The translations under genes were made by a program, and so were the position numbers. From the NCBI GenBank assembly GCA_024763075.1, contig JANTGF010000001.1, positions 1 through 64,000 of the forward strand: a DNA stretch of 64,000 nucleotides, given 5' to 3'. Shown here piece by piece: positions 19,618 to 41,272 of this stretch (within the stretch, counting starts at the first letter, position 1; every line of letters starts with the position of its first letter). The DNA is from Bacteroidales bacterium. GTDB lineage: Bacteria; Bacteroidota; Bacteroidia; Bacteroidales; VadinHA17. The notes below the pieces were generated by a model. That model made no database searches. It saw nothing but the letters and a program-made list of their open reading frames with translations, and was not told the DNA's origin.

Positions 19618-19666
19618 TAGTTATACTTTAGTATTAAAATAACGAAGTTATATTTTTTAAAGAATA

Positions 19667-21667: not shown

Positions 21668-23601
21668 TTTTTAGTTTTTACTGAGTTTTGCATTTCTTCC
21701 CAGGATGCCCGGGGGATATAATAGAAAAATCCATCTTCGGCTCCGGTTAACAGATCGGGAATACCATCTTTGTTCCAGTCAACTGTGGTAGGAGAGGTGG
21801 AGTGGCCACCCAATACAACAGAAGTGAGATTTCCAATATATTTGAATATAAAATGTTCATTATTCCCTGTATTTCTGTACAGTGCCGTATTGATGGTATT
21901 AATAAGTAAGTCATAATCACCGTCATTGTCCCAGTCCACAAAATCAATTTTTCTTCTTCCACTTTTCCCTGCTCTTTTTTCATTGAGTTGCAAGGGATTT
22001 CCTTTTTCATCAAAGAATACCCTTTTCCCCGGTTTAAGAAGGAGGTGGTTGTCTTTTTTTATTCTTTCAAAAAAGCTCAAATATCCCTGGTGGTCGATAA
22101 CAATCAAATCATTCAATCCATCTTTGTTAAGGTCCAGAACAACAGGCCGGGTTCTCCATTGCACTACAAGGTTTCCAGGCTCAGGATCCCACCAGTTCCA
22201 TTCCGGTTTTGGTGGAGTTCCCTGCCAGTCCACTTTAATATTCCCGGGTTCACTCAGTTTTGGCTGGATCCGTGTACCGGTATTTTGCAGCCATTGTATC
22301 TTCCCAATGATGCTGTTAAAAACAATATCTGGCAACCCATCCATATTCCAGTCAGCTACGTAAGGTACGGTATAGCCCCATTTTGCTTCTGCCGGGCCCT
22401 GGATGGACAGATTTTTTCCGGCCATAATTCTAAAAACAGAGTCTCCGGCTTTTAATCTTTTTGGTCCTGCCCATTTTGGATTGCTATTTCCTCCCTGGTT
22501 TTCGATCCATTCAATAAAACCGGCTGTATTTCCGGTAATAATGTCTTCATCTCCATCCCCGTCCCAGTCAAAACTGCAGGGTGTGGACAGGGCACCGCAT
22601 TTTACATATTCTGCTTTTTGTTTAAAATAAACCGGTTCTGCCAGTATGGGTTTGCTTTCAATATCCAGGCCGGTATTCTCAATGAATACAACACGTCCGT
22701 CTTCCTTGCCAACAATAAGGTCGAAATCATTATCATTGTCCCAGTCAAAAACAACCACCTCAGGCATTTCCAGTTCAAGATGTAGTATTTCTCCATTTAC
22801 CTTCAGGAATTTCCCTTTTGCGTAAACAGGCTTTGTTCGTGTTCCGGTATTCTCAAAAAAGGTGATTTTATCCAGAAATTCTCCGCAAATAAGATCCAGG
22901 TCCCCATCATCATCCCAGTCAATAAGATTTGGTGATGGCCAGCCATATAAATCAATTGGTTTATTGTTGGCAAAAATCTGTTGGGTTTTCCCGTATTTTG
23001 GTTTTTGATTCGTTCCGTAATTTTTCACCCAGTAAATTCTTCCATGAAGGGGTCCATTTGTCCAGTTGCCTTTTTCATCGTAAGCATCATCCCATCCATA
23101 TTCTCTCCAGTCACTGGCACCCATATAAAGATCATTTATGCCATCACCATCGTAGTCGGCTATTTTCCATTGATTTGCACGGCCATTATAAAAATCTTGT
23201 TTGTATTTTATTTTCACAGGGTTATTAAAAAGTTGATTTTGAAAATCATAATAAACAATCCCTGGTGCAAGTGCCACAGCCTTTCCATTCAGATAGGAAA
23301 CAGTTAGTTTCTTTTTGCCCTCAGCAATTCGTTTTCCTGGTAAAAAGATGTCATTTCCTTCATTTTCAAAAAAATACAGTCCATTTGAGGGCTTGTCGGT
23401 GGAGGTTGCTAGTAGATCATTATCACCGTCATTATCCCAGTCAACCGGAATAGGGTTTGCCCAGAGGCCTACTCCAAGATCAACAATAAGATTCGGATTA
23501 TTGTATTTTAAACGTACATCTGCAGGCCTTTTCTTATCTTTAATTTTTGTAAAGCATAAAAATGATAGAGCTAAAAACAGTAGAAGGGTTGTAAGCTTCA
23601 T
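21664..23601 (-). CDS. FG-GAP/VCBS-repeat exported protein, paralog B
   Basis: DWDNDGDNDLL, DYDGDGINDLY, DWDDDGDLDLI, DWDNDNDFDLI, DWNKDGIPDLL; co-linear with paralog A, start overlaps stop by 4 bp. Confidence 0.85.
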   Translation of the reverse strand: MKLTTLLLFLALSFLCFTKIKDKKRPADVRLKYNNPNLIVDLGVGLWANPIPVDWDNDGDNDLLATSTDKPSNGLYFFENEGNDIFLPGKRIAEGKKKLTVSYLNGKAVALAPGIVYYDFQNQLFNNPVKIKYKQDFYNGRANQWKIADYDGDGINDLYMGASDWREYGWDDAYDEKGNWTNGPLHGRIYWVKNYGTNQKPKYGKTQQIFANNKPIDLYGWPSPNLIDWDDDGDLDLICGEFLDKITFFENTGTRTKPVYAKGKFLKVNGEILHLELEMPEVVVFDWDNDNDFDLIVGKEDGRVVFIENTGLDIESKPILAEPVYFKQKAEYVKCGALSTPCSFDWDGDGDEDIITGNTAGFIEWIENQGGNSNPKWAGPKRLKAGDSVFRIMAGKNLSIQGPAEAKWGYTVPYVADWNMDGLPDIVFNSIIGKIQWLQNTGTRIQPKLSEPGNIKVDWQGTPPKPEWNWWDPEPGNLVVQWRTRPVVLDLNKDGLNDLIVIDHQGYLSFFERIKKDNHLLLKPGKRVFFDEKGNPLQLNEKRAGKSGRRKIDFVDWDNDGDYDLLINTINTALYRNTGNNEHFIFKYIGNLTSVVLGGHSTSPTTVDWNKDGIPDLLTGAEDGFFYYIPRASWEEMQNSVKTKK

Positions 23602-23638: not shown

Positions 23639-25828
23639 TTATTTAATCAGGCCATGATAACGGGCCATGTAATAGGGCAGAAGATACATGGTGCCTTCAT
23701 TTTCAGAATATCCGCTTCCTTCAGTTGCATCAAGGACAAAACCATCCCTGTCAAGCCTGACATGACATCGTTCGTCAATGGGAAGTGCTTTCCCGTCAAT
23801 ATGCCAGCCTGTTTTTTGCAGGTTTTCCACGGCATATTCAAATGTATTATCCGGCCGCTCAGGATTTACAGGCCTCCAGCCTTCATTTACGACCTGTCCC
23901 GGTGTCGGATCAAAAACGATATCCAGCCTGTGCCGGTTGTCCATTCTGTACCCGATTAAATCAAGGGGTAGTTTTTGTAATGTCTCAAGAATATCCTCTG
24001 TTTTATAATCTGTCTTATATAACTCCCGGGAGGTAAATTCTGCATAGTTACCCGCATTTGTAAAAACCTTTCCCGTATTATATGTTCCTTTATCTACCAA
24101 AGCATTGAATTTAATTGCCTGAGCGGCATAAAGTGTATTCCAGAAAGCACTCTTCTGTTTACTGATATGCAACCATGCATTTTCCAGGCTTTCCCTGTAC
24201 ATCATTATCAGTTCGGGATCATCTTCATAATTCAGCAGGCCATACATACTCATCAGACAAAGATTGTTATCCCAGGGGACAACATCTTCCGGCGGGAAAT
24301 ACATTTTGGACAGCATGGCGTTGATGTGGTAATTGTATTTATCACGCAGCATTTTAGCAGTTTTCTGATATTCAGGGTTTTTTGTAATATGGTAAGCAAC
24401 ATTCAGGAACGAAAGCATCATCATGGAGTTTAATCCTCTTTGATCCCAACCCCAGACTGAATTCAGAAATTCCGGTGAGAAATTTGCCCATCTAGTTGGT
24501 TTTCCGTCGTGATCCTGCAAATACAATCCATGCCTGATTAGATGATCAGTGATATCTCCAACTACTTCCCTGACCTGTTGTTTTTCTTCTTCAGTATCTG
24601 CAACCAAGTCATAATAAATTCCATAGAAAAAATAATGTCCGGCCAATTCATCCGAGCTTGTATCACATTTCCACAGGTATTTTCCATCTTTACTCTTTAC
24701 AAACCGGGGTACAATATCTTTCCAAAAAGGATCTTCCTTTTGTTTCCGGATGTTATATTCATGGCTATACTGTTCATTTACCGGTTCCGGCCAGTCAAGC
24801 GGGATAATAACTCTTGCGGGGAATCCTTTCTCATGCGTAATATCTACCAGCCATTTACAAGCCTCAAAACTTCTTAAGGCGAGTTTCTTTGCATCCGGAC
24901 TTCCGGTTACAGCATAACGAAATGCCTGAGCAGACCCATACATAGCGGTGTACATCCCGTCATTATCTGAGATAGCTGGTTCCCATGAGTTGACATCATA
25001 ACGGATGTTTAATTTATTCTGGGCAATAAAACCCATCCGGTTGTGCCGGGATTCAACCTGAGCTGTAAAAATACCTGCTTTTTCTTCCAGGCTCAAAGGC
25101 TGAAAAGTAATCCGGCTAATCCCTTTGTTTGTAGCAAACCAGGTAGTCCCGTCTTTCCCTGTAAAAATATCGTTTACATGATCATCCGGTAACCATCTTC
25201 GGCTGAAACGATAGTAAAACTTTTCTCCATCTGCTCTGATAGCACCCTTCATCGTTCCAAACCAGACAGAACCATCAGGAGCTTTTGATATGCATGTAAA
25301 ATATTTAAACGGAAGTCCTTCTTTTCCTGTAAACAATTTCCATTGTCCGTCATATAAATAACCCACACCTTCGTTTGAACCAAACCATAGCCTGCCTTTT
25401 GTATCAACCTGCATTACGGAAACATTTGACAATTTCCAACTGTAATTATTGTCGGCAGGAAATATTTCAGTCCATTCATCTTTTATCTTCCCCTTAATAA
25501 ACAATCCGTCTTTTTTCCCTACATAGACTTTATTCCGGTATTCAGTACGGGATAAAACCTCCTCATTTTTTTTCTTTTTAGGTGAATTCAAAGGGTTTTT
25601 AGAAATTAATTTCCACCAATCACTTTCATATTTATAAGTTCCCGTGTTTGAAACAGCAATTATATTTCCTGTTTTATCTGTTTTTACACTAGAAAATGAT
25701 GTTTCCGGAATTCCTCTGTCCGATGTAAAAACAGTGGCAACTTCCTGTAGAAACTTTTCATTGCTGTTGGGTTGGGCAAAAAGAGATGAAGAAAAGAACA
25801 GAAAAGTAAGTGGAGTTATAAGCTTCAT
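23639..25828 (-). CDS. Reg_prop-like beta-propeller fused to a putative alpha/alpha-toroid domain, paralog 1
   Basis: WFGSNEGVGYLYDGQWKLFT..KAPDGSVWFGTMKGAIR propeller repeats; SRRWLPDDHVNDIF; CDTSSDELAGHYFFYGIYYDLVAD; helical C-terminus. Confidence 0.65.
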   Translation of the reverse strand: MKLITPLTFLFFSSSLFAQPNSNEKFLQEVATVFTSDRGIPETSFSSVKTDKTGNIIAVSNTGTYKYESDWWKLISKNPLNSPKKKKNEEVLSRTEYRNKVYVGKKDGLFIKGKIKDEWTEIFPADNNYSWKLSNVSVMQVDTKGRLWFGSNEGVGYLYDGQWKLFTGKEGLPFKYFTCISKAPDGSVWFGTMKGAIRADGEKFYYRFSRRWLPDDHVNDIFTGKDGTTWFATNKGISRITFQPLSLEEKAGIFTAQVESRHNRMGFIAQNKLNIRYDVNSWEPAISDNDGMYTAMYGSAQAFRYAVTGSPDAKKLALRSFEACKWLVDITHEKGFPARVIIPLDWPEPVNEQYSHEYNIRKQKEDPFWKDIVPRFVKSKDGKYLWKCDTSSDELAGHYFFYGIYYDLVADTEEEKQQVREVVGDITDHLIRHGLYLQDHDGKPTRWANFSPEFLNSVWGWDQRGLNSMMMLSFLNVAYHITKNPEYQKTAKMLRDKYNYHINAMLSKMYFPPEDVVPWDNNLCLMSMYGLLNYEDDPELIMMYRESLENAWLHISKQKSAFWNTLYAAQAIKFNALVDKGTYNTGKVFTNAGNYAEFTSRELYKTDYKTEDILETLQKLPLDLIGYRMDNRHRLDIVFDPTPGQVVNEGWRPVNPERPDNTFEYAVENLQKTGWHIDGKALPIDERCHVRLDRDGFVLDATEGSGYSENEGTMYLLPYYMARYHGLIK

Positions 25829-25837
25829 AATTAATTA

Positions 25838-26644
25838 TTATATAGTTACTGTGTCATTTCCGGAAACAGTGAAATTATCATTTAATTCAGATTTAATTGA
25901 GGAGATATCATCTCTGAGTTTTTTACCAAACAAAGTAAGGTCAGAGCTGTGTAAGATAATATTAATGCCTTCTTTAGCCCATCTGACCTGATGGACGGGT
26001 TCCTCAGGAAGATGAATGCCTACTCCTATGTTTCTTTTATTACATTCGTGAATAATTTGTTTTACTCTTTTCACGAAAACCGGATGGGTGTATTCTTCAG
26101 GGTGTCCAATGCTGCAGGAGAGGTCATGTGGGCCAATGATCACACCATCAAGCCCGGAAACTGAAAGTATTTTTTGTAAATGATCAATTGCGGTTTGACT
26201 TTCTATATTAATGAATAAAAGATTATTTTTACATCTGTTAGTGATATAGTTTTCTAATTTTTTATCTAACATTTCATCTCCATTCAGAATATGTTGAAGT
26301 TTTTCCCCCTTTAGTGGGCGGTATTTTACAGCGCCTACCAGATTCTTTACCTGTTCAGAAGATTCCACATAAGGTGCCAGTATTGCAGATGCTCCCCCGT
26401 CCAGAGTTGTACAGGCAAGGTTGGGATCAGGATAAGCTATCCGTACCATTGTAGGAATCCCGGAAGCTGAATAAAATGCACACATATTAGCGATAGTTTC
26501 CCGGCCAAGTGGAATATGTTCTGTATCCAGGAATACAAAATCAAGGTTTGCCTGTCTTGCAACTCCAACCCACAAAGGTGAAGGTGAAATTATGGCAGTT
26601 CCATAGATTCTATGACCTAATTGTAATTTTTCTTTTAAATTCAT
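25838..26644 (-). CDS. HpcH/HpaI family aldolase (2-keto-3-deoxy acid type)
   Basis: DFVFLDTEHIPLGRETI..PTMVRIAYPDPNLACTTLDGGASAILAPYVESSEQ..LDGVIIGPHDLSCSIG. Confidence 0.9.
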   Translation of the reverse strand: MNLKEKLQLGHRIYGTAIISPSPLWVGVARQANLDFVFLDTEHIPLGRETIANMCAFYSASGIPTMVRIAYPDPNLACTTLDGGASAILAPYVESSEQVKNLVGAVKYRPLKGEKLQHILNGDEMLDKKLENYITNRCKNNLLFINIESQTAIDHLQKILSVSGLDGVIIGPHDLSCSIGHPEEYTHPVFVKRVKQIIHECNKRNIGVGIHLPEEPVHQVRWAKEGINIILHSSDLTLFGKKLRDDISSIKSELNDNFTVSGNDTVTI

Positions 26645-26655
26645 CTTCGACTGAT

Positions 26656-28125
26656 TTATTTAAATCTGATGCTATACAGATCTGCATCTTTCATAACAAA
26701 ATGAAGTCGTATAGGCCTGTTATTCAATGATGTCAGATCCGGATTTCCTTTCCATGTCACTAATTTTTCTATTTCGTTCCCAATTAGTTCATTGTTGTTT
26801 TCCAGTTCAAATCCTTTTATTTTTTCTCCGTTTATATCCAACAATTCAACCTTTACAGAACCGGCTGCAGAAGTTGAAAAGTTTAATACCAGTGAATCGC
26901 CAGTAAACTTAAATGGTTTTGTGATCAATTCTCCTCCTTTGTAAGGAGCATGTACCGAAGTAAAACCATCTATACGCAGAGAATAGCGATGCAAATGGGC
27001 TGTCGGTTGGGCATAATCCTGATTCACGTAAACTGACATTTCAACCGGACTTGTTTGCACAACATTCAAAGCCGGGTAATTGGAGCGTGATACCCAGTTC
27101 TGTAAACCAATTCCCGGACGAATAAAACCCTCCATAAATGTACGGTCGTATTTATTTCCACCCCTTGTTGTCATAAAGATTGCATCGGAACAATCCTTGA
27201 AATATTTTGGGTTTACATTGAGCTCGTGAGCCTGTTCTTCTGTTAAAACCTGCCTGTGCGGCATAAATCTCGCCGCTATTGAAACATAGATATGCGGAGC
27301 ACGAAAATAGGGTGATGTCTGGTTTGTGTAAAGATGTTCTCTGGGAGTATCGCCAAAATCCATTTCTACAGGTTTAGTCCAGTGAATGAAATCTTCAGAG
27401 CTTGTTTTGCTTACTGTTCTGTATCTTGTTTCTCCGGTTGTCCAACTTCTGAAATAACAGATATACCGGTTTTCAGTTGTGGACCAGAATGCCAGATTTT
27501 GTGAATCGAACGGGCCCCTCATCGGACCTTTTGTGATAAGCGGCTCTTCCTTCACTTTTTGCCAGTGTATGCCATCCGGGGATTTAAAACCCACCAGTCC
27601 GGTCCTTTCCGTACCGGCAATCGCTTTATAAGCTTCATCTGAAGAAATTCCGGGCTTGTTATCAATAAAAGGGGAGAAGTTATGACTAAAAGGTGCATTA
27701 TCTGCTAAGATCACATTATTCTCAAGGCTGCCATATATTTCAAAAATCTTAAGATCAGGCTTTATCCAGTGAACTCCGTCTTTAGATTCTGCATAACAGG
27801 TTGTCTCAGCCGTACTTCCATCTTTTCCTGCTTTTGGCAGACCTCGGTAATAAAGGCGAAATCTATCCTGATCTTTAAGAATAGTTACATAACCACAGAA
27901 GGGGCCTTCCCAGGGTTTATCAAAATAGAGTACAGGGCCCTGATCCTGGGGTGTATGAAGAATTAACCGGGTATTTCTCAGTTCATCAATCAGAAAACTG
28001 TCAACGAATAATTCCAGGCGGGAGCCAATGTTTGGTATTTCATTTTTGGCTGAAACTACAGGGCCTGTCTGACTGTACAAATGTAAACTACAGAAAAACA
28101 GAATAAGGGTCAGGATTGATCTCAT
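26656..28125 (-). CDS. exported glycosidase-like protein (GH32/43-like 5-bladed propeller fold suspected)
   Basis: RLELFVDSFLIDELRNTRLILHTPQDQGPVLYFDKPWEG; DRFRLYYRG; YAESKDGVHWIKPDL; FKSPDGIHWQKV; signal peptide. Confidence 0.55.
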   Translation of the reverse strand: MRSILTLILFFCSLHLYSQTGPVVSAKNEIPNIGSRLELFVDSFLIDELRNTRLILHTPQDQGPVLYFDKPWEGPFCGYVTILKDQDRFRLYYRGLPKAGKDGSTAETTCYAESKDGVHWIKPDLKIFEIYGSLENNVILADNAPFSHNFSPFIDNKPGISSDEAYKAIAGTERTGLVGFKSPDGIHWQKVKEEPLITKGPMRGPFDSQNLAFWSTTENRYICYFRSWTTGETRYRTVSKTSSEDFIHWTKPVEMDFGDTPREHLYTNQTSPYFRAPHIYVSIAARFMPHRQVLTEEQAHELNVNPKYFKDCSDAIFMTTRGGNKYDRTFMEGFIRPGIGLQNWVSRSNYPALNVVQTSPVEMSVYVNQDYAQPTAHLHRYSLRIDGFTSVHAPYKGGELITKPFKFTGDSLVLNFSTSAAGSVKVELLDINGEKIKGFELENNNELIGNEIEKLVTWKGNPDLTSLNNRPIRLHFVMKDADLYSIRFK

Positions 28126-28145
28126 GGATTTATTTTTTAGTTTGT

Positions 28146-29327
28146 TTATTTCAGTTTATCTTTTTTTACCGGTTCAATATTGTCAACAATCCATCTTCGC
28201 ATTTTTTTGCCTTCTTCTGTTTGTTGCGGAAAAGAAATGAAATCCAAAGGGATATTCAGTTCTTCCTCAATACGAACAGCGATGATGGGCCAGATAACTC
28301 CAATATCACCTACAACAGGAATGCTTTTTTCCAAACGGGCAAAACCCGACATTTCCATCCGGAATGGGATATCCATGACCTTTGTTTTTGGCAGGCCTTT
28401 GTCAATAGCCTCCTGAACTGTACCAGAGTTCTTTTCAAAATCCCAGGCTTTCTTTAGGTTGGGATCGGCATCAATCCGGATCAATGACTTTTCTTCCAGG
28501 CTATAAGTGGGAGTTCCTTCCCATTTTGACCAGATACCATGACCTGTGTGGGTCTCAAAGGGTCCGTCGTGAATTTCCTGGGTAAGTGCAACGGCAGATT
28601 CTATAATTACTTCGGCCTCACCCAACATGTGTGCAATTCTTACGGATCGCTCAGCTATGGAAATAGAATCAGCAATGGCGATTCCGGTCATTCCACCTCC
28701 TACCAGCTGAGGTACCGTAACCAGAACGGGAATATTTTTTGCATAACCGGCACCCAACATTGTTTTTGGATCGGCTCCTGCACCGGCGACCATCTCAAAA
28801 GGAATGTCTTGGTTTTTAGCCAGTTGTTGTATTTCTTTTGCAAGGATCTCCGTTCTTAAACCCATAGGATAGGCCATGTTTCCAGCGGCTTTGGTTATGA
28901 TATTTCCATCCTCGTTCATGACTTTATCCATCAGAGAATCGTCAAGCGTCATTTCTTTTCTGATTTCTTCTTTTAAAGCGGGGTTCATTACAGTTACTTC
29001 AAAAATGTCACCATTTGGAAGAATGTCTTTCGAAAATCCCAGTTTCTTACCATCCACCCTCTTTACCTCATCCAATACTCCGGCCATTTCATGGGCAATT
29101 ACGGCAGAGCTGGTAGTCACCCCGTCAATGATTCCTTTATGGATCAGTTCGGCGATCAGGGTGGTTACCCCCTCATGCAGATTGGGTCCACTGCCTGTCA
29201 CTACTACTATTTTCTTTTTATTCTTCTTTGCATTTATAATCCTTTTGATCGCCTCATCCAGGTGTTTTTTTGTTGAATCAGGTAGGTTTTGATAAAGTTG
29301 TTGAATTATACTTCTGTCTTGATCCAT
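28146..29327 (-). CDS. uncharacterised cytoplasmic protein, possibly deoxyhypusine synthase-like Rossmann fold
   Basis: ATG at 29327 (MDQDRSIIQQLYQN) avoids overlap with the upstream gene; IVVVTGSGPNLHEGVTTLIAELIHKGIIDGVTTSSAVIAHEMAGVLDEV; VTVPQLVGGGMTGIAIADSISIAER. Confidence 0.4.
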   Translation of the reverse strand: MDQDRSIIQQLYQNLPDSTKKHLDEAIKRIINAKKNKKKIVVVTGSGPNLHEGVTTLIAELIHKGIIDGVTTSSAVIAHEMAGVLDEVKRVDGKKLGFSKDILPNGDIFEVTVMNPALKEEIRKEMTLDDSLMDKVMNEDGNIITKAAGNMAYPMGLRTEILAKEIQQLAKNQDIPFEMVAGAGADPKTMLGAGYAKNIPVLVTVPQLVGGGMTGIAIADSISIAERSVRIAHMLGEAEVIIESAVALTQEIHDGPFETHTGHGIWSKWEGTPTYSLEEKSLIRIDADPNLKKAWDFEKNSGTVQEAIDKGLPKTKVMDIPFRMEMSGFARLEKSIPVVGDIGVIWPIIAVRIEEELNIPLDFISFPQQTEEGKKMRRWIVDNIEPVKKDKLK

Positions 29328-29340
29328 TTTTAAATATTTT

Positions 29341-31551
29341 TTATTCAATATAAGCATAATATCTTCCCATCCAATATGCCAGCAGCCAGTAAACCCCATC
29401 GCTTTCCGTATAACCGCCATCTCCCTGGACTGCTTTCCATGGATTGTTATCCCAGCGCATAATTCCCCTTTCATCGGGTGGAACCAGTCTGCTGGTCTGG
29501 ATGTCTTCTAAAATTGGGAACCGGGTTAAATACAAATCTTCCCGTTTGCTATTATCCACACGCCAGCGAATCAGGTCAAGTGGGTTTTCCTGTAATAATT
29601 TGACTGATTTATCATTATTTAGATTTTTTCCCGAGAAAGCATTGTAGGTAAAATAGAAAAAAGGGCTGTCATCCTCTTTTAATTCCTCATACCAGTTATC
29701 CAGACTTTTATGATATAACTTCAGTAGTTCCGGATCATCTTCATAAAGTAATAAAACAGGGTAGGCAAGTGCCAGTAACTCATCGTCAATGTGTGTTCTC
29801 CATGCGGGAAGTGTAACCAATGCATTTACAATGTTATTTTTGTAGTTATATTCATTTAACAATTTATAGTACTCCTTTTGATAGCCTTCATTTCCACTCA
29901 GGTGATAAGCAAGTTTGAGATAAGAAAGGATTTCCACCGAATTGATATTTCTTTCACTTATCCAGTCCGGATTGTTATTTAAATATTCAGGAGCCCAAAC
30001 ACCCCAGGCAGTGTGTTTCCCATCAATATCAACAAATAAATATTTGTGATCAATAATGTAATCTACAATTTTTAATACATGTTCCTTTATTCTTTTTTTT
30101 TCCTTTTTATCGGCAACAAGATCAAAGTACATCAGATAGCCATACATATGGCCTGTGATCTCATCACTGCTGGTTCCTCTTTTCCATTGCCATTTTCCGT
30201 CTTTTGAGATAATCCACATATTTTCAACTCTTGTAGCACGTGGTTCATGGATCCTTTTGTCTGCCCATTCCCTTTCACTTAGAATTTTATTCGGATTGGC
30301 CATTCTGTTCCAGCTAACCGGGATAACCGTTCTGGCAACAAAACCATCTGTTTCGGTAACCGTTTGCAAAAATTTTAGTGCATTGAATGCTTTCTTTGCA
30401 TTTTCTTTTGCTTTTGGGTTTTTCGTTACAGCAAATCGATAGGATTCCATTGCCAGGTACATACTTGTATATTGGCCGTCATTGTCGTCATCCATGGGTT
30501 CCCAGCTTGTTGTATCTCCCGGGGTTTTGAATCTGCATTTTTCAACCAGCCAGGGTTCACGAATATGTCGCCGGGACATAATATCATAATAATAGTTTGC
30601 TTTTTGTTCCAGGGTCATCTCCTTTTTCTTAATGGCGCTCACCCCGCTTGCAGTAGCAATCCATGCATTCCCCTTTTGATCAAAGCTTATATCCCGAACT
30701 TTATCATTAAGTAACCAACGACGGCTATGTCTTAAAGACCAGGTTTTTCCATCATACCTGGTAACTCCCAGGTCTGTTCCAATCCACATGGATCCATCCG
30801 GGGCTTTTTTGACGCAACGTATCCAGATATTTGGCAAACCATCCTGTGGGGTATAGCTTTTTATGCGTTTGTCATTTTTATAAACGGATACCCCTCCAAG
30901 TCCTCCAATCCACAGCTCTCCGTTCTCATCAAAATCCAGTCCGTAAATATCATCACTCAGTAATTCTTTTTCATTCTGGAATAAAGTGACCTTATCCGGA
31001 GTCTGATGATACAAACCTTTTCCCGTTGCCAGATAATAACTATCCTTACCATCACTGATCAGGCTTCGAAGCGAACGGGAGTAAGGCATATCTTCTTTTT
31101 TAAAAGAGAAACCTTCTGACTTCAGGATTCCATCCGGTCCGATTGTAATAATTCTACCATTTATTTCATTTATTACAGCAAGCGGACCGTTTATAGGTTC
31201 AATTTTTTCAAGTTGTACTCCTCTTTCTTTATATATACCGTTCCAGGCAGCTACCCAGACGATTCCTTCCGAATCAAGGAATAAATCATTTATGGGTCCC
31301 TGATTTATGGAATCAAGCCTCCCGGTCCATTTATTTTTTGAGGATTCCAAGGTAAAAACCCCTGCTTTTGTTCCGGCCCAGACTTTTCCTGATCCGTCCA
31401 CCAAAATACAGCGAACATCATTTCTTTCAAACGAAGATCCCAGTCTGTATGCCTGATGGTATTCCTGTATAAAAAGGGTATCTTTAATTCCGGCATAAGC
31501 CTGAGTCATCACTGAAACCGAGAGAAGAAGCAAGAACCTAAAAGACTTCAT
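29341..31551 (-). CDS. Reg_prop-like beta-propeller fused to a putative alpha/alpha-toroid domain, paralog 2
   Basis: GELWIGGLGGVSVYKNDKRIKSYTPQDGLPN; SRRWLLNDKVRDIS; GTSSDEITGHMYGYLMYFDLVAD; NPLDLIRWRVDNSKREDLYL. Confidence 0.65.
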   Translation of the reverse strand: MKSFRFLLLLSVSVMTQAYAGIKDTLFIQEYHQAYRLGSSFERNDVRCILVDGSGKVWAGTKAGVFTLESSKNKWTGRLDSINQGPINDLFLDSEGIVWVAAWNGIYKERGVQLEKIEPINGPLAVINEINGRIITIGPDGILKSEGFSFKKEDMPYSRSLRSLISDGKDSYYLATGKGLYHQTPDKVTLFQNEKELLSDDIYGLDFDENGELWIGGLGGVSVYKNDKRIKSYTPQDGLPNIWIRCVKKAPDGSMWIGTDLGVTRYDGKTWSLRHSRRWLLNDKVRDISFDQKGNAWIATASGVSAIKKKEMTLEQKANYYYDIMSRRHIREPWLVEKCRFKTPGDTTSWEPMDDDNDGQYTSMYLAMESYRFAVTKNPKAKENAKKAFNALKFLQTVTETDGFVARTVIPVSWNRMANPNKILSEREWADKRIHEPRATRVENMWIISKDGKWQWKRGTSSDEITGHMYGYLMYFDLVADKKEKKRIKEHVLKIVDYIIDHKYLFVDIDGKHTAWGVWAPEYLNNNPDWISERNINSVEILSYLKLAYHLSGNEGYQKEYYKLLNEYNYKNNIVNALVTLPAWRTHIDDELLALAYPVLLLYEDDPELLKLYHKSLDNWYEELKEDDSPFFYFTYNAFSGKNLNNDKSVKLLQENPLDLIRWRVDNSKREDLYLTRFPILEDIQTSRLVPPDERGIMRWDNNPWKAVQGDGGYTESDGVYWLLAYWMGRYYAYIE

Positions 31552-31630
31552 AAAAACCTGTTTGACAATTTAAACATAGAGTTCAGAAGGTATTTTTAAA
31601 TATGATTGGTTTTAAATTTAGTAAAAAAGA

Positions 31631-32824
31631 TTAAAACCGGTCCTCTTTTAACCGCCATTTGGTACTCATCAGACTGGTCTTTTCGCCTTTTTTGGCAACC
31701 TGATAATAAACGGTTAATATGGATTCGTCATCCAGTTGCACAGATGCCGGATAACCCAGGTCACCGTTCATGGCCGGACTAATCATTATCTCTTTGTCAA
31801 TTTCCCATGTTTTACCTCTATCTTTACTGATGCAGGCTTTTTCTCCAAAAGGTTCTCTGCGTACACCATATGAATTCAGAATCCATCCGTTTTTCAACTG
31901 AATCAGATGCGGAGGGTAACCCCAAATGTTTGTTTTATGGCTGGTTGTCCATGTTTTGCCTCCATCAGAACTTTCTGATTGCCTAAGATATGACTGGCTG
32001 TGGTCTGAAGGATTGTAACGAAACATCACCAGGAGCTTCCCGCTTTTAAGTTCGACCACATGGGGCTCATGAGCCTTTGCGATATCGTCTTCTTCGCTTA
32101 AGGGGATGGAGGAGATCATTTGCCAGGATTTTCCATCATCTGTGGATTGTTCCACGCCTATAAATTTCTCGCCGTCTTTGAAAGCTGTTCCCACATATAA
32201 CAATCTGTCATCAGAAAGTTCAATGGGGCCGTGTGGAGCAGAAACAAGTTGTTTTACAGGATCTTCCCATGTTTTGCCATTGTCTGTTGACCGTCTAGTC
32301 CAGTTCCCCAACCAGTATTTTTTAGTATTTTCATCCAGTTTTTTGGTAATTTGTTTATAATCCGGATGGTTTTCAAAGTATCTTTCGTTATCAAAGGCCA
32401 GAGAGGTAAACCAGTTTACCAACAGGGTACCATTCCTTGTCTCAAGTATTCCGGCATCACGATCATCCAGAGGGGTATCATTTATTGTTTCAGGCTGACT
32501 CCAGGTTTTGCCATTATCGCTGCTTCGGATAATTTGAGTAACCCCATACGGACAAACGTGAGCTTCACGATCACCGGAGAAAACAACTAAAAGTTCTCCT
32601 GATTTGGTTTTTGTTATACTGGGCCAGCCAATATAACGACCGGGTTGTTTGCAGATCACCTTTGTTTCAATAATTTCTGCATATTTTGAGCTATCCCGGG
32701 AGATTACATCCTGATTTTCCTTGTTACTTTGCTTAGAGTTGCAACTCAACAAAAGCGGACCAATTATAAAAACAAGAAGAATAATTAATCCCTGCTTCTG
32801 AAGTAAGAGAGTTTTTCGTGCCAT
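31631..32824 (-). CDS. BNR-repeat sialidase-like lipoprotein
   Basis: Asp-box motifs SSDNGKTWSQP, STDNGKTWEDP, STDDGKSWQM, SSDGGKTWTTS, SKDRGKTWEI; lipobox LLLSC. Confidence 0.85.
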   Translation of the reverse strand: MARKTLLLQKQGLIILLVFIIGPLLLSCNSKQSNKENQDVISRDSSKYAEIIETKVICKQPGRYIGWPSITKTKSGELLVVFSGDREAHVCPYGVTQIIRSSDNGKTWSQPETINDTPLDDRDAGILETRNGTLLVNWFTSLAFDNERYFENHPDYKQITKKLDENTKKYWLGNWTRRSTDNGKTWEDPVKQLVSAPHGPIELSDDRLLYVGTAFKDGEKFIGVEQSTDDGKSWQMISSIPLSEEDDIAKAHEPHVVELKSGKLLVMFRYNPSDHSQSYLRQSESSDGGKTWTTSHKTNIWGYPPHLIQLKNGWILNSYGVRREPFGEKACISKDRGKTWEIDKEIMISPAMNGDLGYPASVQLDDESILTVYYQVAKKGEKTSLMSTKWRLKEDRF

Positions 32825-32836
32825 TGGTATTTGATT

Positions 32837-34210
32837 TTATTCTTTGATTTTATTCCAGCCAATATCCATAATAAAGATCTGTCGAAAATCGAGTCCTCCT
32901 GCATCCTTCGCTATTTCTCCGTTTGTTTTTTTCGTAGGAATTCTCATTATATATGCCAGCCTGTTACCATCTTTAGAAACGACCAGTTGTTCCCGGATCT
33001 GGTTATCGTCAGAAAGCTGAATGGTTTTACCAAACGGAAGGTCTTCTCCTACATAAGATGTGTAAACATTTCCTCCGCTCAGGTAAAATATCCAGTTGTC
33101 AGAATTATGCCAGCGAACTGCTTCTGCATTTTCTTCAAGACGGGTTACCTGTGTAGCCTCTTTCCCGGAAGCTTTTGCATTTATAATCCAGACCTGGTCA
33201 GTACCCCTTGTATCCTTTGCCAGGAAAGCAATTCTATTCCCATCGAAAGATCCTCTGGCGATTCCGTTTACCTCCATCCCGCTTGTTAATCTTCTGATTG
33301 AAATTCCTTTTGGAGGGAGAGGATAAGTATCCATGGTGCCGGGTATAGCGGTTGTGATATCAATATTCTGAGGAATATCGGCAACAAACAAATCAAAATT
33401 ATAGTCCGTTCCGTTTTCTGCCCGGACTTTTCCAATGAATGCTCTCATGGTACCATCTGCATTTACCCAGGAATCTCCATAAGCCTTTTCAATTTCCCCT
33501 GGTTTTGATTCTCCTTTTTTTGCAGGTTTTAGTATTACGGAAAAATATTGGGTATAACCTTCAGGAGTATTTTCATCCGGTTGCATAAAGCCAATGGTAC
33601 GGTCGATGTTCTGAACAAGAAAATCATCGTAAGTAAATCCTATCCTGTTCCCGTTCCGGGAATATTCATGCCGGTGTGTACCTCCCCGGTGAGCGCCCGG
33701 TGTGGTTTTTTGATGAGTAATATCCCGCATATCCACTTTATTGGATATTTTTTTACCGTCACCATCTACTTCAAGGGCGGTCCGGTTTCTGATATTGTAA
33801 TACCCCCGCTTTTCAACCTCACTGACCATGGGCCCATGGATAAATATTACTTTGTTTTTTGAGGGATGGTAAGATACTGCTGCAACACCCGGAGCAGGAT
33901 TATCACCGGTGATGGATTCCGGTTCCCACAGTATGGTTTCTTTTCCGGTGGCTATTTCAACTTTTTCAATGGATTTTGAGTTTCCCAGATTCTCATTAAA
34001 TACAGTTCCACGGGTATCGTAACAAAGAAATTTGTCATCGGGAGAAAAATTATCATTGTTATCCAGTGCATGTGTTTTGGGAGAGAAAGTAACCTGCTTT
34101 TCGTTCATTGGAATGATTGTTTTGTTGTTTTTTGTTTCCGGATGCTTGCATTTTGTGAACACGCCAACGAAAACAATAAAGGTCAGGAGTATGCTAAAAG
34201 CTCTTTTCAT
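32837..34210 (-). CDS. DUF3748 / TolB-like propeller protein
   Basis: KQVTFSPKTHALDNNDNFSPDDKFLCYDTRGTVFNENLGNSKSIEKVEIATGKET; GGTHRHEYSRNGNRIGFTYDDFLVQ. Confidence 0.75.
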   Translation of the reverse strand: MKRAFSILLTFIVFVGVFTKCKHPETKNNKTIIPMNEKQVTFSPKTHALDNNDNFSPDDKFLCYDTRGTVFNENLGNSKSIEKVEIATGKETILWEPESITGDNPAPGVAAVSYHPSKNKVIFIHGPMVSEVEKRGYYNIRNRTALEVDGDGKKISNKVDMRDITHQKTTPGAHRGGTHRHEYSRNGNRIGFTYDDFLVQNIDRTIGFMQPDENTPEGYTQYFSVILKPAKKGESKPGEIEKAYGDSWVNADGTMRAFIGKVRAENGTDYNFDLFVADIPQNIDITTAIPGTMDTYPLPPKGISIRRLTSGMEVNGIARGSFDGNRIAFLAKDTRGTDQVWIINAKASGKEATQVTRLEENAEAVRWHNSDNWIFYLSGGNVYTSYVGEDLPFGKTIQLSDDNQIREQLVVSKDGNRLAYIMRIPTKKTNGEIAKDAGGLDFRQIFIMDIGWNKIKE

Positions 34211-34272
34211 AATCTATTAAGGTTCGATTTACAAGCAAATTTCAGAAATTTTCTCATTGCAATTTACATTCA

Positions 34273-36465
34273 TTATTTCCCCGGTCCGATGGCGTTAATA
34301 TACCGGCCCAACCAATAAGGCAGAAGATAAATATACGGCGGGTATTCCCTGTTTCCATTGCCGCCACCGTTATTTCTGTATGCACCATTATGTAAATACA
34401 TGGGTTGCTCATCCCTTGGGAGCACTTCTGTGTATTCCTGATTTCTGAAATTTGGTTTAATTCTCGTTAAATCATGCCTTTGACTATTGTCAACCTTCCA
34501 GGAAATGAGATCCATCGGAAACTCTTTGAGCCACCAGATGGAGTTATCCAGATCAAAATTTTTGCCGTCTATCATGGCATAAATAAAATTCCAGAGCGGG
34601 TTTTTCTCAGTACGCTCAACTTCCCAGTGGCTCTTTGCTGCCTCGAAATATTTCTTTTTTAAATCATCTGTAAAAGCATATTTCACCAAAGCCGGGACTG
34701 TAAGGAAGTACATTTCATCGTCGGAATGATTCCATCGGTCGCTAAGAGGTTGCCCCTCAACTTTACCAATAACTGTTGCAGGCCTAATAGTATTCTCCAG
34801 ATAACCGTATTTATCCATTAGTTCGTAAGCTTTCTTTTTGTAGATTTCTTCACCGGTGAAATGATAGGCAGTCTGGAGGAAAGCCAGGATCAAAGTCGAA
34901 TTCAAACGACGATCACCTACGTTTATTGGAAAACTGTTTACATATTCCGGATTCCACCGGCCCCACTGCGTTGGTTTTCCATTCCAGGTAACGAGGTACC
35001 AGTCATGTTCTATAATATGATCCATTTCTATTTTTATCTGATGAACAGCTCTGTCTTTCCATTCCTGATCAGGAACAATTTCAGCAAAAAGTGCATATAC
35101 AAAAAAATGCCCGCAGGATTCATCGCTGCTGGTGGTTGATTTCCACCTCCATCTCTTGTCTTTTGTAAGACGCCATATTTTTTGATCTTCCGGCATATTC
35201 GGGTCATTGTCACTGGACTGGTAGCCATCAATTTCATAAGTTCTTGCAGGAAATCCTTTGATGCCACTTATCTCTGTTAGTCTTTCCATTGCCTCAAAGG
35301 CCTCATAGGCATTTTGAAGTGCATCTTCAGATTTTGTAGCACCATACCGGAATAATTCTCCGGCCAGGTACATGGAAGTCCAGAGTCCGTCATTATCAGT
35401 ATCATGAAGGATTGCAGTAGATAAATCTCCTGGTGTTGACAGACTGGTTTCAGATGAAAAACCAAAACGGATGTGTCTTAATCTTTGAACTTTCTGAAAA
35501 TACTCAGCTTTGTCTTCTAGTGTCATTTCAGTAAAAATAATTTTACTTAAGCCTGTTTCGCTCAATACCAGAACACTGTTATCCGGTCCGGCTGAGATAT
35601 CTGTAACTTTATCATCCACCAGCCACCTTTTGGAGGCATAATAATCATATTTCCCATCTTTTCGCAAAGCAAAAGCACCTCTGGAAGAACCAAACCAGAG
35701 TTTGCCATTAATATCACGAATACAGGAAATATTCGTGCCGGGCAGTTTTTTGTTTAATGGCGAAATAGTTTTGAAGGTTTTTCCATCTAAAAAATAAACT
35801 CCATCAATGGTGCCCACTGCAATCTGATTTTTACCTTTTTGAACAGCCAATGATGTCATATTTTTACCATCATGTTTTTTCACCAGTTTTTTATTTTTCA
35901 GGTCAAATACATAAATGGATTGGCTTGTTAAGATCAGAAAGCGAGAATTTTCTTTATCAAAATGAATTTCAGAAGGGTTAAAATCTGTTAAATTCTTATT
36001 CCAGGTTTTTTTACCATCTTCAAACAATGTCAATCCGTTTTTTTGTCCTATCAGAATGGCAAAATTGTTTCCAATACAGAAAAGAGAGCTGTTTGGCATG
36101 TTGTGTTCAACATAAATTTTTCCGGCCCATGAGTTACTGAAAACAGCTTTATCGGTAAGGTAAAAGAATTGATCCTGATAATCAGCAATGGCTTTAATTT
36201 TCAGGTCGGATAAAAAGGGGTATAATTGATTTTTCACCAGATTTCCGTCCCATGGTTGTAATAACCCTTTTGAGGACAGAACATTTACAATCCCGTTTCT
36301 GTCACTTCTTGTTTGTAATAATTCATCATTCTGCATTTGCCCGATAAGTACAAACTTTTGTGCAAGATCCTGCACGTACGGCTTATCTTCATAAGGTTGT
36401 GAGAGTCCTGCCTGAAAGATAAGTAATCCGATGATGATGATTTTTATTTTGTTTAACTGCTTCAT
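34273..36465 (-). CDS. beta-propeller fused to a putative alpha/alpha-toroid domain, paralog 3
   Basis: LWFGSSRGAFALRKDGKYDYYASKRWLVDDKVTDIS; TTSSDESCGHFFVYALFAEIVPD; FPMDLISWKVDNSQRHDLTRI; co-linear with paralogs 1 and 2. Confidence 0.65.
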   Translation of the reverse strand: MKQLNKIKIIIIGLLIFQAGLSQPYEDKPYVQDLAQKFVLIGQMQNDELLQTRSDRNGIVNVLSSKGLLQPWDGNLVKNQLYPFLSDLKIKAIADYQDQFFYLTDKAVFSNSWAGKIYVEHNMPNSSLFCIGNNFAILIGQKNGLTLFEDGKKTWNKNLTDFNPSEIHFDKENSRFLILTSQSIYVFDLKNKKLVKKHDGKNMTSLAVQKGKNQIAVGTIDGVYFLDGKTFKTISPLNKKLPGTNISCIRDINGKLWFGSSRGAFALRKDGKYDYYASKRWLVDDKVTDISAGPDNSVLVLSETGLSKIIFTEMTLEDKAEYFQKVQRLRHIRFGFSSETSLSTPGDLSTAILHDTDNDGLWTSMYLAGELFRYGATKSEDALQNAYEAFEAMERLTEISGIKGFPARTYEIDGYQSSDNDPNMPEDQKIWRLTKDKRWRWKSTTSSDESCGHFFVYALFAEIVPDQEWKDRAVHQIKIEMDHIIEHDWYLVTWNGKPTQWGRWNPEYVNSFPINVGDRRLNSTLILAFLQTAYHFTGEEIYKKKAYELMDKYGYLENTIRPATVIGKVEGQPLSDRWNHSDDEMYFLTVPALVKYAFTDDLKKKYFEAAKSHWEVERTEKNPLWNFIYAMIDGKNFDLDNSIWWLKEFPMDLISWKVDNSQRHDLTRIKPNFRNQEYTEVLPRDEQPMYLHNGAYRNNGGGNGNREYPPYIYLLPYWLGRYINAIGPGK

Positions 36466-36480
36466 TTCTTTATAAATTTA

Positions 36481-37704
36481 TTATTTGTGGTTGTTTTTTA
36501 TCCAGTCCGATGAGAAAGCAACATGTTTAATAGCCCTGTCTTTGTTTAAATGATAAGAGAATGTTGCATGTATCAGACCATCTTTTGTTTGGATGATTGA
36601 CGGGTATGAAAATGATCCCTGCCCGGGTTCTCTTTCCTCTATTGTGCGTGTCCATTTCCATGTTTTTCCTTCATCATCGGAAAGACTAAGCACCAACCGG
36701 TTTCTGCCGTTTTCAAGATTGTTGTAAATAAGTACCCAATCTCCGTTTTGTAATGCTATGGCCTCCACGCTTGCCCCGGGATTAGGGAGGTTGGTTTTTT
36801 GAGCAGTACTCCAGGTGTAGCCATTGTCTTTTGATGTACTGACCATGATCCGGCCGGGTTCATCACCATTATCCCGCATAAATGCAATCAGTGACCCGTC
36901 CTTCTTCTGAATGACAGCCGGTTGAACATTTCCACGACCCACAAGGGGCAGACCAGGAGTCCAGGTATTGCCATGATCATCAGAAATAGCCATCAGAGAA
37001 AGGTTATAGCCGTCAGAATAAAGAGGGATCAATATTCTTCCATTGGATAAGGTTACCGGATGTATCCGTGTCATCCAGCCGGTCTCTCTTTTTTTAGGAT
37101 CCTTTGCCGCTTCATAAATCATTTTTTCATACGGCGGAGCATACTCCGCCCAGGCAAATCCGGGCATTTTTAATTCTTCAAATCCGGTTTTGATGGATTC
37201 GGCAAACTCATCACCCGGTTTTAGTAAAATAATGTCCTGCCATTTCCATACCGGAGCACCTGCTTTATTAAAATCAGATGAAATTTTATACTTCAGAATG
37301 GAATTTTCCCAGCGATTTGCCTGCACAACAATCCAGAAAAGAACCAGCTGTTTATCTTCATTCACAAACAGAACGGGGTTGCAATCAGGCTGGTTTGGGG
37401 TATCAGCAAGAGTAAAAGGAACACTCCATTCTGACTCTCCTTTTTTTAACCTGGCACCCTTAACAAGTACATCATTGGCAGTTCTCTCTCCTGAACCTTC
37501 AAACCAGCAACTCAGGAGATCTCCGTTTGGGAGTTCTACTATGGAACTGCTGTGAACATGGAGAGACTGAAGTGGAAAAATAAGCTGGAAAGTAAAATCT
37601 TTTCCACGGGTTCGTTCTTTTGATTTTTGGGCTGAAGCGGTTTGAGTGTTTAAGAATAAAGAGAAAATCAGAATAAACAGGAGAGAGGATTTTTTTGTTT
37701 TCAT
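36481..37704 (-). CDS. exported sialidase/BNR-type (COG4692-like) protein
   Basis: LHVHSSSIVELPNGDLLSCWFEGSGERTANDV; ISDDHGNTWTPG; STSKDNGYTWS; LSDDEGKTWKW. Confidence 0.8.
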   Translation of the reverse strand: MKTKKSSLLFILIFSLFLNTQTASAQKSKERTRGKDFTFQLIFPLQSLHVHSSSIVELPNGDLLSCWFEGSGERTANDVLVKGARLKKGESEWSVPFTLADTPNQPDCNPVLFVNEDKQLVLFWIVVQANRWENSILKYKISSDFNKAGAPVWKWQDIILLKPGDEFAESIKTGFEELKMPGFAWAEYAPPYEKMIYEAAKDPKKRETGWMTRIHPVTLSNGRILIPLYSDGYNLSLMAISDDHGNTWTPGLPLVGRGNVQPAVIQKKDGSLIAFMRDNGDEPGRIMVSTSKDNGYTWSTAQKTNLPNPGASVEAIALQNGDWVLIYNNLENGRNRLVLSLSDDEGKTWKWTRTIEEREPGQGSFSYPSIIQTKDGLIHATFSYHLNKDRAIKHVAFSSDWIKNNHK

Positions 37705-37737: not shown

Positions 37738-38832
37738 CTATTCACTGGGCCATACGCTATTCAGTATTGGCTTTGATTTGATTTTTTCCGGATCAACGAC
37801 TACGTGTTTAATCAATTTCCGGTTCCAGGTATAGGTAATATGTATCAACCCGTCTTTTGACTGAATAACAGCAGGATATGAATATTCGCCATCCGGATTA
37901 CTATCGTTTTCCAGTAGAATGGCAGCTTCCCAGTCCTTGCCATTATCAGAAACAGCCATATTTAAAATATTTCTGTCTCCCCAATGCTCCCCTTTCTTAC
38001 ATGCTACATGGTTGTATATCAATACCTGTCTTCCATCTTTGAGACTCACTGCATCGATCCCCGAATTTGGATTAGGCAGATGAATGGTTTCAAATTCACT
38101 CCAGGTCATTCCCTTATCGGAAGACCAGGAAGAAAAAATGTCCTGGTTTTTACTCCTGCACAACATTTGCACTTTGCCATCCGGGTGTATAAGTATGGTA
38201 GGCTGAATGAGTGAAATATTTTTTCCGTCATTCAAAGCTTTCGTTCGATTCCATGTTTTTCCCATATCTTTGGAGTATTCCATATGTACCCTCCACCCAT
38301 GGTCTTCTGTACTGGACGGGCTAAGCAGAGTGCCATCAGACAGGAGTACCGGTTTATTTTTGATGGGACCAAAAATATTCTCAGGAAGTTTAACGGGGAC
38401 AGACCAGTTCCGTACATCTTCATCAGTTGTTATTACTTCACCCCACCATTTTCTGGGGTTAGTCCCTACTTTATAAAATAGTTCTATTTTGGAACCTGTA
38501 TTAAACAGAACAGGATTCCATGTGGGGTAACGATTCCCTTTTTTTTGTATTCCGTTGGCAACCTCAACCGGAGTGCTCCATTCATTTCCGGAAAAAGTAC
38601 TGATCCAGATTCCTACATCCGGATTTTTTTCATTTGTTCCTCCAAACCAGGACGAAATCAGCCCGTCTTTTGTTTCTTCAATGGTTGATGCATGGCAGCT
38701 CGGGAATGGAACATCTTCTGCCTGATAGATAAATTCAGATTTGGTAATAGCCATAAGACCTTTAAAAGGTTTTTGTGCAAAAATGCCAGTTGGGATAAGC
38801 AAAATGATTGCCAGAAAACTCAGTAATTTCAT
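37738..38832 (-). CDS. exported sialidase/BNR-type (COG4692-like) protein
   Basis: PSCHASTIEETKDGLISSWFGGTNEKNPDVGIWIS; YSKDMGKTWNRT; SDKGMTWSEFETIHLPNPNSGIDAVSLKDGR. Confidence 0.82.
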   Translation of the reverse strand: MKLLSFLAIILLIPTGIFAQKPFKGLMAITKSEFIYQAEDVPFPSCHASTIEETKDGLISSWFGGTNEKNPDVGIWISTFSGNEWSTPVEVANGIQKKGNRYPTWNPVLFNTGSKIELFYKVGTNPRKWWGEVITTDEDVRNWSVPVKLPENIFGPIKNKPVLLSDGTLLSPSSTEDHGWRVHMEYSKDMGKTWNRTKALNDGKNISLIQPTILIHPDGKVQMLCRSKNQDIFSSWSSDKGMTWSEFETIHLPNPNSGIDAVSLKDGRQVLIYNHVACKKGEHWGDRNILNMAVSDNGKDWEAAILLENDSNPDGEYSYPAVIQSKDGLIHITYTWNRKLIKHVVVDPEKIKSKPILNSVWPSE

Positions 38833-40358: not shown

Positions 40359-41272
40359 GTTAAATTCTTATGATAGGATCTTAATTCGTTAAGATTTTGT
40401 TTTATCTGTATTCTTTCTGCAGTATTAAATCTGTGGAGCGGAGGAGCCATATAGTCGTTACAAATACCCATAACTGATAACGAACATTTTGTTCCTTTGG
40501 TAATCCTTGAGGTATATTTGCCAACACTGTATATTGTGTTATAGATTTTCAAAACCTGATTTCTCAAATCAGAGATTACTTCAAAATCTTTTGTTAAAGA
40601 AGCTTCATACAGTTTAACAAATAATTCAGGAAAAATATTAGCCCCGCCTGCAACAGCTCCATGTCCTCCATTCATAATTGTTTCCGGAAGGAATAATTCG
40701 GTTCCTGTAATTATTGAAAATTCTGGAGAGTCTTTGAATGCATTAATTAACTCATATAAGTAAAATAAGTCTCCGGAACTGTCTTTAATTCCAAGGGCCC
40801 CCATATTTTTTGCCAGTTTAACCGTTTCGACCGATAAGTGAACTTTAGTATGGCTGGGCATATTGTAGACAAGGAAAGGCAATGCTAGTCTGGGAAGCAA
40901 AGTCTCCAAATAATCCACCATTTCAGCTTGTGAAACCGGAAAATAATAAGGAGGGGCAAGAACTACAGCATCCGCACCAACATTTCTGGAATATTCTGCT
41001 AATTCAATGGATCCTTTCAGGGAGGTATCAGTTATTCCAACAAAGACGGGAACTCTGTTATTCACCTGATCACAGGTTTTTTTGATAACTTCTTTTCGTA
41101 ATTCATAGCTCAGTGAGGGAGCTTCTCCATTGGTCCCAAGTATAAAGAGCCCATGCACTCCTCCAGAGATCAAGTGTTCAATTAAGCTGCTTAAGCCCTG
41201 ATTGTCAAGCTTTTCATAACTCACTAAAGGAGTGATCATCGGAGGGATGATTCCTTTAACAGGTGTTTTCAT
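40355..41272 (-). CDS. DHDPS/NAL-family class I aldolase (DapA/NanA/KDG aldolase-like)
   Basis: KGIIPPMITPL; GVHGLFILGTNGEAPSLSYELRKEV; YNMPSHTKVHLS; GIKDSSGD Schiff-base Lys region. Confidence 0.9.
   Translation of the reverse strand: MKTPVKGIIPPMITPLVSYEKLDNQGLSSLIEHLISGGVHGLFILGTNGEAPSLSYELRKEVIKKTCDQVNNRVPVFVGITDTSLKGSIELAEYSRNVGADAVVLAPPYYFPVSQAEMVDYLETLLPRLALPFLVYNMPSHTKVHLSVETVKLAKNMGALGIKDSSGDLFYLYELINAFKDSPEFSIITGTELFLPETIMNGGHGAVAGGANIFPELFVKLYEASLTKDFEVISDLRNQVLKIYNTIYSVGKYTSRITKGTKCSLSVMGICNDYMAPPLHRFNTAERIQIKQNLNELRSYHKNLT

Follow-up and report, generated by a model that had tools for sequence, protein, structure and literature searches.

The first 64,000 nucleotides of contig JANTGF010000001.1 (assembly GCA_024763075.1, a Bacteroidales bacterium of the VadinHA17 lineage), hereafter the window, carry three genes, P0001, P0002 and P0003, whose products of about 730 amino acids (aa) join an N-terminal propeller to a helical C-terminal domain (C-domain). 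The three proteins belong to a real, widespread and unnamed family, in which the family itself and its pairing of domains are new, whereas the fold class is a known one. We lean towards the view that they are exported glycan hydrolases, in which a two-Asp toroid of an unclassified six-hairpin family would be the catalytic unit and the propeller an accessory; this applies to the statement as a whole, and the exact chemistry is held with less assurance.

Three paralogous propeller-toroid proteins

A preliminary description of the window had proposed three paralogous ORFs (open reading frames) of this size. All three are present (Table 1), although on the minus strand; translated on the plus strand, they are interrupted by many stop codons. 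Pairwise identities in BLASTP were 34% for P0001 and P0002 (E = 9e-97), 34% for P0002 and P0003 (E = 3e-86) and 30% for P0001 and P0003 (E = 5e-63), values which place their relatedness far beyond chance. The N-termini of all three resemble signal peptides, suggesting that the proteins are exported. The C-domain spans about 420-485 aa in each. The junction and C-domain motifs previously listed were found, with the exceptions that P0001 reads PLSLEEKA rather than MTLEEKA after the junction and GLNS in place of (R/N)(L/I)NS. A shared sensor-like propeller was borne out by Pfam Reg_prop matches in P0001 (E = 4e-12) and P0002 (E = 1e-16), but P0003 had no Pfam match and its propeller was assigned through the alignment and the repeat pattern.

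Structures were predicted with AlphaFold2 from alignments of the window and the fetched loci only. The model of full-length P0001 (predicted local distance difference test, pLDDT, 91.1; predicted template-modelling score, pTM, 0.91) defines the relative placement of the propeller and the helical domain. Strands form five blades (residues 25-246), of which the last seems to be closed by the first strand, and in residues 247-729 long helices alternate and carry beta insertions. For P0002 and P0003, seven blades each were counted by eye from the sequence repeats. The stretch ahead of the C-domain is either about 220-280 or 300-360 residues long, with the start of some ORFs over-extended, and by length these two groups are consistent with five- and seven-bladed forms.

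The best Foldseek matches of the full-length protein were propellers of the hybrid two-component system (HTCS) sensors BT4673, BT4663 and BT3049, followed by PorZ and others; none of the top 50 entries matched both domains together at a useful template-modelling (TM) score. The family shares a Reg_prop-type propeller with the periplasmic domains of BT4663 and BT4673. However, it has a single propeller, five-bladed (modelled) or about seven-bladed (from sequence), and a toroid C-domain instead. Kinase domains were absent from all three proteins in the Pfam search, as had been noted before; the accompanying idea that the C-domain replaced a kinase holds as an analogy only, P0001 being one five-bladed propeller in the model and not a large multi-propeller HTCS sensor. 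A sensor-kinase reading was rejected, no histidine kinase or regulator domain having been found. The propeller similarity to PorZ of type IX secretion (NCBIfam NF052228, E = 2e-11 for P0002) was likewise set aside, the score being 42.8 bits against a curated cut-off of 260.

The resemblance to BT4663, BT4673 and PorZ would also suit a non-catalytic glycan-binding, sensory or scaffold protein, in which the propeller senses and the toroid binds, and the same operon encodes several propellers of other kinds. We regard this as distinctly improbable. No kinase or other signalling domain was found in the family search, and acidic residues are strictly invariant over phyla, paralogous clades and propeller-less members, a pattern that would rather be expected of an active site.

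Propeller and helical-repeat proteins of Planctomycetes and Verrucomicrobia have been described as membrane-coat-like (PMC2799638), and a bacterial coat of this kind was considered here. The gross order is the same, an N-terminal propeller and then paired helices; the family also occurs in both of these groups, and HOPS/CORVET and nuclear-pore chains are among the full-length Foldseek matches. However, those matches have TM scores of 0.12-0.17, whilst the C-domain alone matches sugar-enzyme toroids and not solenoids. By their description, the coat-like proteins of the Planctomycetes-Verrucomicrobia-Chlamydiae (PVC) group are set apart by an open alpha-solenoid (stacked pairs of alpha-helices, SPAH) after the propeller, and the three published examples with a stated size (1,039-1,287 aa) are larger than about 730 aa. 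Moreover, PMC2799638 reports none in Kuenenia, yet a metagenome-assembled genome (MAG) labelled Kuenenia carries a family member, and the genes in the window sit among glycan-degradation genes. A membrane coat is hardly credible on this evidence.

The C-domain, a probable distant six-hairpin toroid

The C-domain of P0002 was modelled with a pLDDT of 90.8 and a pTM of 0.92, and the structure comparison that had been suggested earlier identifies a helical, toroid-type domain placed among the (alpha/alpha) sugar enzymes. Almost all of the top 50 Foldseek matches to the C-domain alone are such enzymes (best E = 4.6e-4, probability about 1), with cellobiose 2-epimerases the best and glucose 2-epimerase, glycoside hydrolase (GH) families GH76, GH9, GH146 and GH88 and polysaccharide lyase (PL) family PL17 also represented. 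Searches with the single sequence and with a 79-sequence profile returned nothing above cut-off in Pfam and nothing in NCBIfam or PDB sequences, so that the previously proposed undescribed family does lie outside the families of these databases. Phage families (PHROGs) gave no match either.

Profile-profile comparison (hhalign, with a trimmed query free of propeller columns) scored the family at 75-83% against GH127, 8% against GH88 and 3% against AGE, the AGE alignment containing four sequences. Control pairs scored 86% (GH88-GH127), 74% (AGE-GH88) and 21% (AGE-GH127). Because the GH127 score falls within the 21-86% range of these accepted pairs, we read the family as a distant member of the six-hairpin (alpha/alpha)6 glycosidase superfamily, in none of the families tested. 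Membership of a named toroid family was rejected, the Pfam, NCBIfam and PDB-sequence searches being negative and the hhalign similarity at superfamily level at most. The GH127/GH146 beta-L-arabinofuranosidases (PF07944) have the best profile-profile score and a toroid catalytic domain. However, the family lies below the PF07944 gathering score (best E = 0.03, 7/79 members), and the Zn-Cys centre of GH127 (catalytic Cys, Zn-binding Cys/Glu) has no counterpart, since none of the Cys in 79 members is invariant or nearly so. The unsaturated uronyl hydrolases of GH88/GH105 use Asp-based chemistry; they resemble the family in the toroid and in the uronate context, and possibly in this chemistry (the family has two invariant Asp), but differ in the hhalign score of 8% and the lack of any PF07470 match.

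Invariant residues and the candidate active site

Conservation was counted in 58 sequences found by hidden Markov model (HMM) in whole genomes, 44 propeller-bearing and 14 propeller-less. The recount on this set was made because the A2/A3 loci had been fetched with patterns holding WKx[DGT]TSSDE and DNDG and were biased. In C-domain numbering (add 309 for P0002), R98, S152, D154, W207, D280, R361, D363 and Y417 are invariant in all 44 propeller-bearing members, followed by E155 (39/44), H159 (33/44) and D281, the second Asp of the DD pair (32/44). The propeller-less members keep R98, S152, D154, W207 and D280, together with D201 and N228. The active site first proposed was thus borne out in part: invariance holds for the SSDE Asp and for both Arg and Asp in DN..R.D, but neither the Glu of SSDE nor the His of GH is invariant, and GH was rejected as a catalytic motif. 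The motifs listed at that stage were also incomplete, having missed an invariant Asp (HIDDE/PWDNN), Arg (ARTV/ARVI/ARTY) and Trp. No invariant His was found among the positions checked in the HMM-found set. In the secondary structure of both models, each of the two invariant Asp occupies the opening turn of a long helix, with R98 and W207 in adjoining connections.

An invariant set of two Asp and no His fits a hydrolase somewhat better than a lyase. A polysaccharide lyase is nevertheless the main rival, albeit an unlikely one: the toroid would cut a uronate polymer by beta-elimination, with the Tyr/Arg/Asn chemistry of toroid lyases, and the aldolases would process the resulting keto-deoxy sugars. 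The PL17 enzyme Alg17c is among the Foldseek matches, R361, D363 and Y417 are invariant in the propeller-bearing class, 2-keto-3-deoxy-acid aldolases are encoded in the operon, and UxuA lies beside a relative. However, a family-wide invariant His is absent, no PL family was matched in Pfam, and R361, D363 and Y417 cannot be aligned in the propeller-less class, which keeps D154 and D280.

The same residues bear on two other toroid groups. AGE-type epimerases use His residues. The AGE-fold enzymes (cellobiose 2-epimerase, GlcNAc 2-epimerase) share the alpha/alpha toroid and supply the best Foldseek matches, which would favour a sugar epimerase or isomerase of this kind acting outside the cytoplasm; yet with no invariant His, TM scores of at most 0.49 and an hhalign score of 3% (against only four AGE sequences), this is very unlikely. 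The alpha-1,6-mannanases of GH76 take Foldseek ranks 4 and 6 and have an adjacent-Asp motif resembling the DD at 280-281. However, the incompletely conserved second Asp, a TM score of about 0.3 and the lack of a Pfam match separate them from the family.

Distribution and phylogeny

Scanning a single genome for each species yielded at least 593 pattern-matched stretches, among which at least 572 relatives were confirmed. The best 80 of these stretches come from Calditrichota, Bacteroidota, KSB1, Hydrogenedentota, Planctomycetota, Verrucomicrobia, Acidobacteria, Nitrospiraceae and Actinomycetota, many of them from MAGs, and nearly all the relatives listed have an N-terminal extension of propeller size. 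The family is sparse in the window's own phylum (7/296 genomes). Carrying genomes hold 1-16 matches (fragments of one gene may count twice), a copy number which was counted in favour of the hydrolase reading, as in expanded degradative enzymes. Seven members occur in the window's genome: the three described here, three on contig C11 (one propeller-less, 404 aa) and one on C10. One member (L225:4858-7265; loci of relatives carry L numbers) is present as two adjacent ORFs of 416 and 368 aa, either a frameshift or a true propeller/toroid split.

P0001, P0002 and P0003 fall into three separate deep clades of the tree, each with relatives from other genomes, and recent tandem duplication was rejected for this reason. 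A P0002-clade gene, BNR_2, a P0003-clade gene and DUF3748 form a row in L224 (from the genome of the Dyadobacter locus L019), and the P0002 and P0003 clades are also paired in L220 and L228. Therefore, these paralogues are old and have been kept together. P0001 is 67% identical to a Calditrichota copy and 57% to a Prolixibacteraceae copy, whereas RpoB of the window's genome is 61% and 78% identical, respectively. As P0001 (L014 and L015 compared with the window) is closer to Calditrichota than RpoB predicts, the identities suggest gene transfer between phyla; for L014 the alternative is a misbinned MAG contig.

Operon and gene neighbourhoods

The three genes lie, as first described, in one operon of 14 co-directional genes, running from 41272 down to 19667 with inter-gene gaps of -4 to 79 bases. 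A single apparent overlap of 134 bases, at the 28146-29474 ORF, is probably an artefact of its over-extended start. The order is a DHDPS-type aldolase, an SSF symporter, two BNR_2 propellers, P0003, DUF3748, a third BNR propeller, P0002, a deoxyhypusine-synthase-like gene, a 489-aa exported protein, an HpaI-type aldolase, P0001 and two FG-GAP genes. Beyond the operon, and with the same orientation, come genes for GH2, GH78, DUF1080 and DUF6807 proteins and an oxidoreductase. The nearby GH78, GH2, BNR propellers, SSF symporter and aldolases were counted in favour of a carbohydrate-active role.

Table 1. Features of the propeller-toroid operon and its surroundings in the window.
Feature	Coordinates	Strand	Remarks
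P0001 gene	23639..25828	-	729-aa predicted exported protein: signal peptide, five-bladed propeller, toroid
P0001 propeller	25091..25756	-	Residues 25-246; five four-stranded blades (AlphaFold2 secondary structure)
P0001 toroid C-domain	23642..25090	-	Residues 247-729
P0001 invariant D393 (SSDE)	24650-24652	-	
P0001 invariant D520	24269-24271	-	
P0002 gene	29341..31551	-	736-aa predicted exported protein: signal peptide, propeller (seven repeat units by eye), toroid
P0002 propeller	30625..31464	-	About residues 30-309 (Reg_prop repeats, repeat reading)
P0002 toroid C-domain	29344..30624	-	AlphaFold2 pLDDT 90.8
P0002 invariant D463	30163-30165	-	
P0002 invariant D589	29785-29787	-	
P0003 gene	34273..36465	-	730-aa predicted exported protein: propeller-like N-domain without Pfam match, toroid
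P0003 toroid C-domain	34276..35532	-	
HpcH/HpaI-type 2-keto-3-deoxy-sugar-acid aldolase	25838..26644	-	Best PDB match YfaU
489-aa exported protein	26656..28125	-	No family match
Deoxyhypusine-synthase-like protein	28146..29474	-	442 aa; start probably over-extended
BNR sialidase-like propeller 1	31631..32824	-	
DUF3748 protein	32837..34210	-	Recurrent family neighbour
BNR_2 sialidase-like propeller 2	36481..37704	-	Recurrent family neighbour
BNR_2 sialidase-like propeller 3	37738..38832	-	
SSF sodium:solute symporter	38862..40358	-	
DHDPS/NanA/YagE-superfamily aldolase	40355..41272	-	
GH78 rhamnosidase, GH2, two FG-GAP proteins	13460..23601	-	Downstream

The 489-aa protein had no Pfam match, no NCBIfam match above cut-off and no meaningful PDB match. 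The deoxyhypusine-synthase-like protein has no PDB relatives. A counterpart conserved at 53% adjoins a family member in L039, from a Hydrogenedentota genome, and the protein is possibly an unrecognised sugar-acid enzyme.

Elsewhere, the recurrent neighbours of the family are BNR_2, DUF3748, HpaI aldolase, the deoxyhypusine-synthase-like gene and a 789-aa protein. The last of these (window 4528-6897) has no Pfam match and recurs near family members in L018, L026, L217, L232, L242 and L254. UxuA mannonate dehydratase, SDR, PfkB kinase, GH92, GH28, YdjC deacetylase and SusC/SusD surround P0002- and P0003-clade members, GH127 (adjacent, in L015) and a GH106 rhamnosidase surround a close P0001 relative, and a sulfatase family occurs in six loci of relatives. 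What these neighbourhoods have in common is the breakdown of glycans and the catabolism of uronates or deoxy sugars.

Propeller-less members (about 400-440 aa) adjoin or are fused with a formylglycine-generating enzyme (FGE)-sulfatase (SUMF1-like) domain in L011:14815-16772, L246:6956-9037, L248:6968-8878, L237 and L242, suggesting that the two form a functional pair. A second cluster in the L011 genome (L011:3802-9613) holds family members with genes named by eye as aldehyde dehydrogenase, iron alcohol dehydrogenase, HAD hydrolase, a glutamine-amidotransferase-like protein and a GlpT-like transporter.

Proposed function

We infer catalysis, hydrolysis over elimination, the substrate and the role of the propeller as follows. 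The C-domain would be the catalytic unit, an (alpha/alpha)6-type toroid, with the propeller as an accessory platform fixed to it via the conserved S(R/K)RWL..D junction and probably aiding glycan binding or shaping. Hydrolysis of a glycosidic bond by the two invariant Asp (D463 and D589 in P0002, D393 and D520 in P0001) is the most likely chemistry, and the invariant Arg and Trp may bind a sugar that is probably acidic (uronic). The paralogues, from three old clades, would probably differ in the linkage that they cleave, the target being a glycan that contains uronate and/or rhamnose; its products could enter by the SSF symporter and then be split by the 2-keto-3-deoxy-sugar-acid aldolases.

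Several observations weigh against this proposal. No member has a known activity, and the family was not found in the open-access (PubMed Central, PMC) literature searched. TM scores of the C-domain against solved toroids are only 0.26-0.49, with root-mean-square deviations of about 8-15 A in Foldseek, and catalytic residues are therefore not transferable from those structures. Highly conserved polar residues lie on one face of the toroid at 14/20 positions compared with 222/424, an enrichment that is suggestive but not significant (p = 0.08). E155 is lacking in the propeller-less class and H159 is absent from most of its members, so the chemistry of the two classes may differ; within the propeller-bearing class, invariant Y417, R361 and D363 leave room for a lyase. 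Lastly, the neighbouring genes were sampled from selected loci and their counts carry no background frequency.

A broader proposal, which we hold tentatively and with slightly less than even confidence, is that of a new CAZy-level propeller-toroid enzyme family with its own active site, whose paralogous clades jointly act on one uronate/rhamnose heteroglycan in Bacteroidota, Planctomycetota, Verrucomicrobiota, Acidobacteriota, Hydrogenedentota, Calditrichota and KSB1. Were this so, annotation would be overlooking a common family of exported enzymes that reaches 16 copies in a single genome and is spread over several phyla known to degrade polysaccharides, and the glycan-degrading capacity of the bacteria that carry it would be undercounted. 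With a toroid as its partner, the Reg_prop-type propeller would also be seen to serve outside signalling. Experiments would have a clear starting point in the two specific Asp of each protein and in a small set of candidate glycans.

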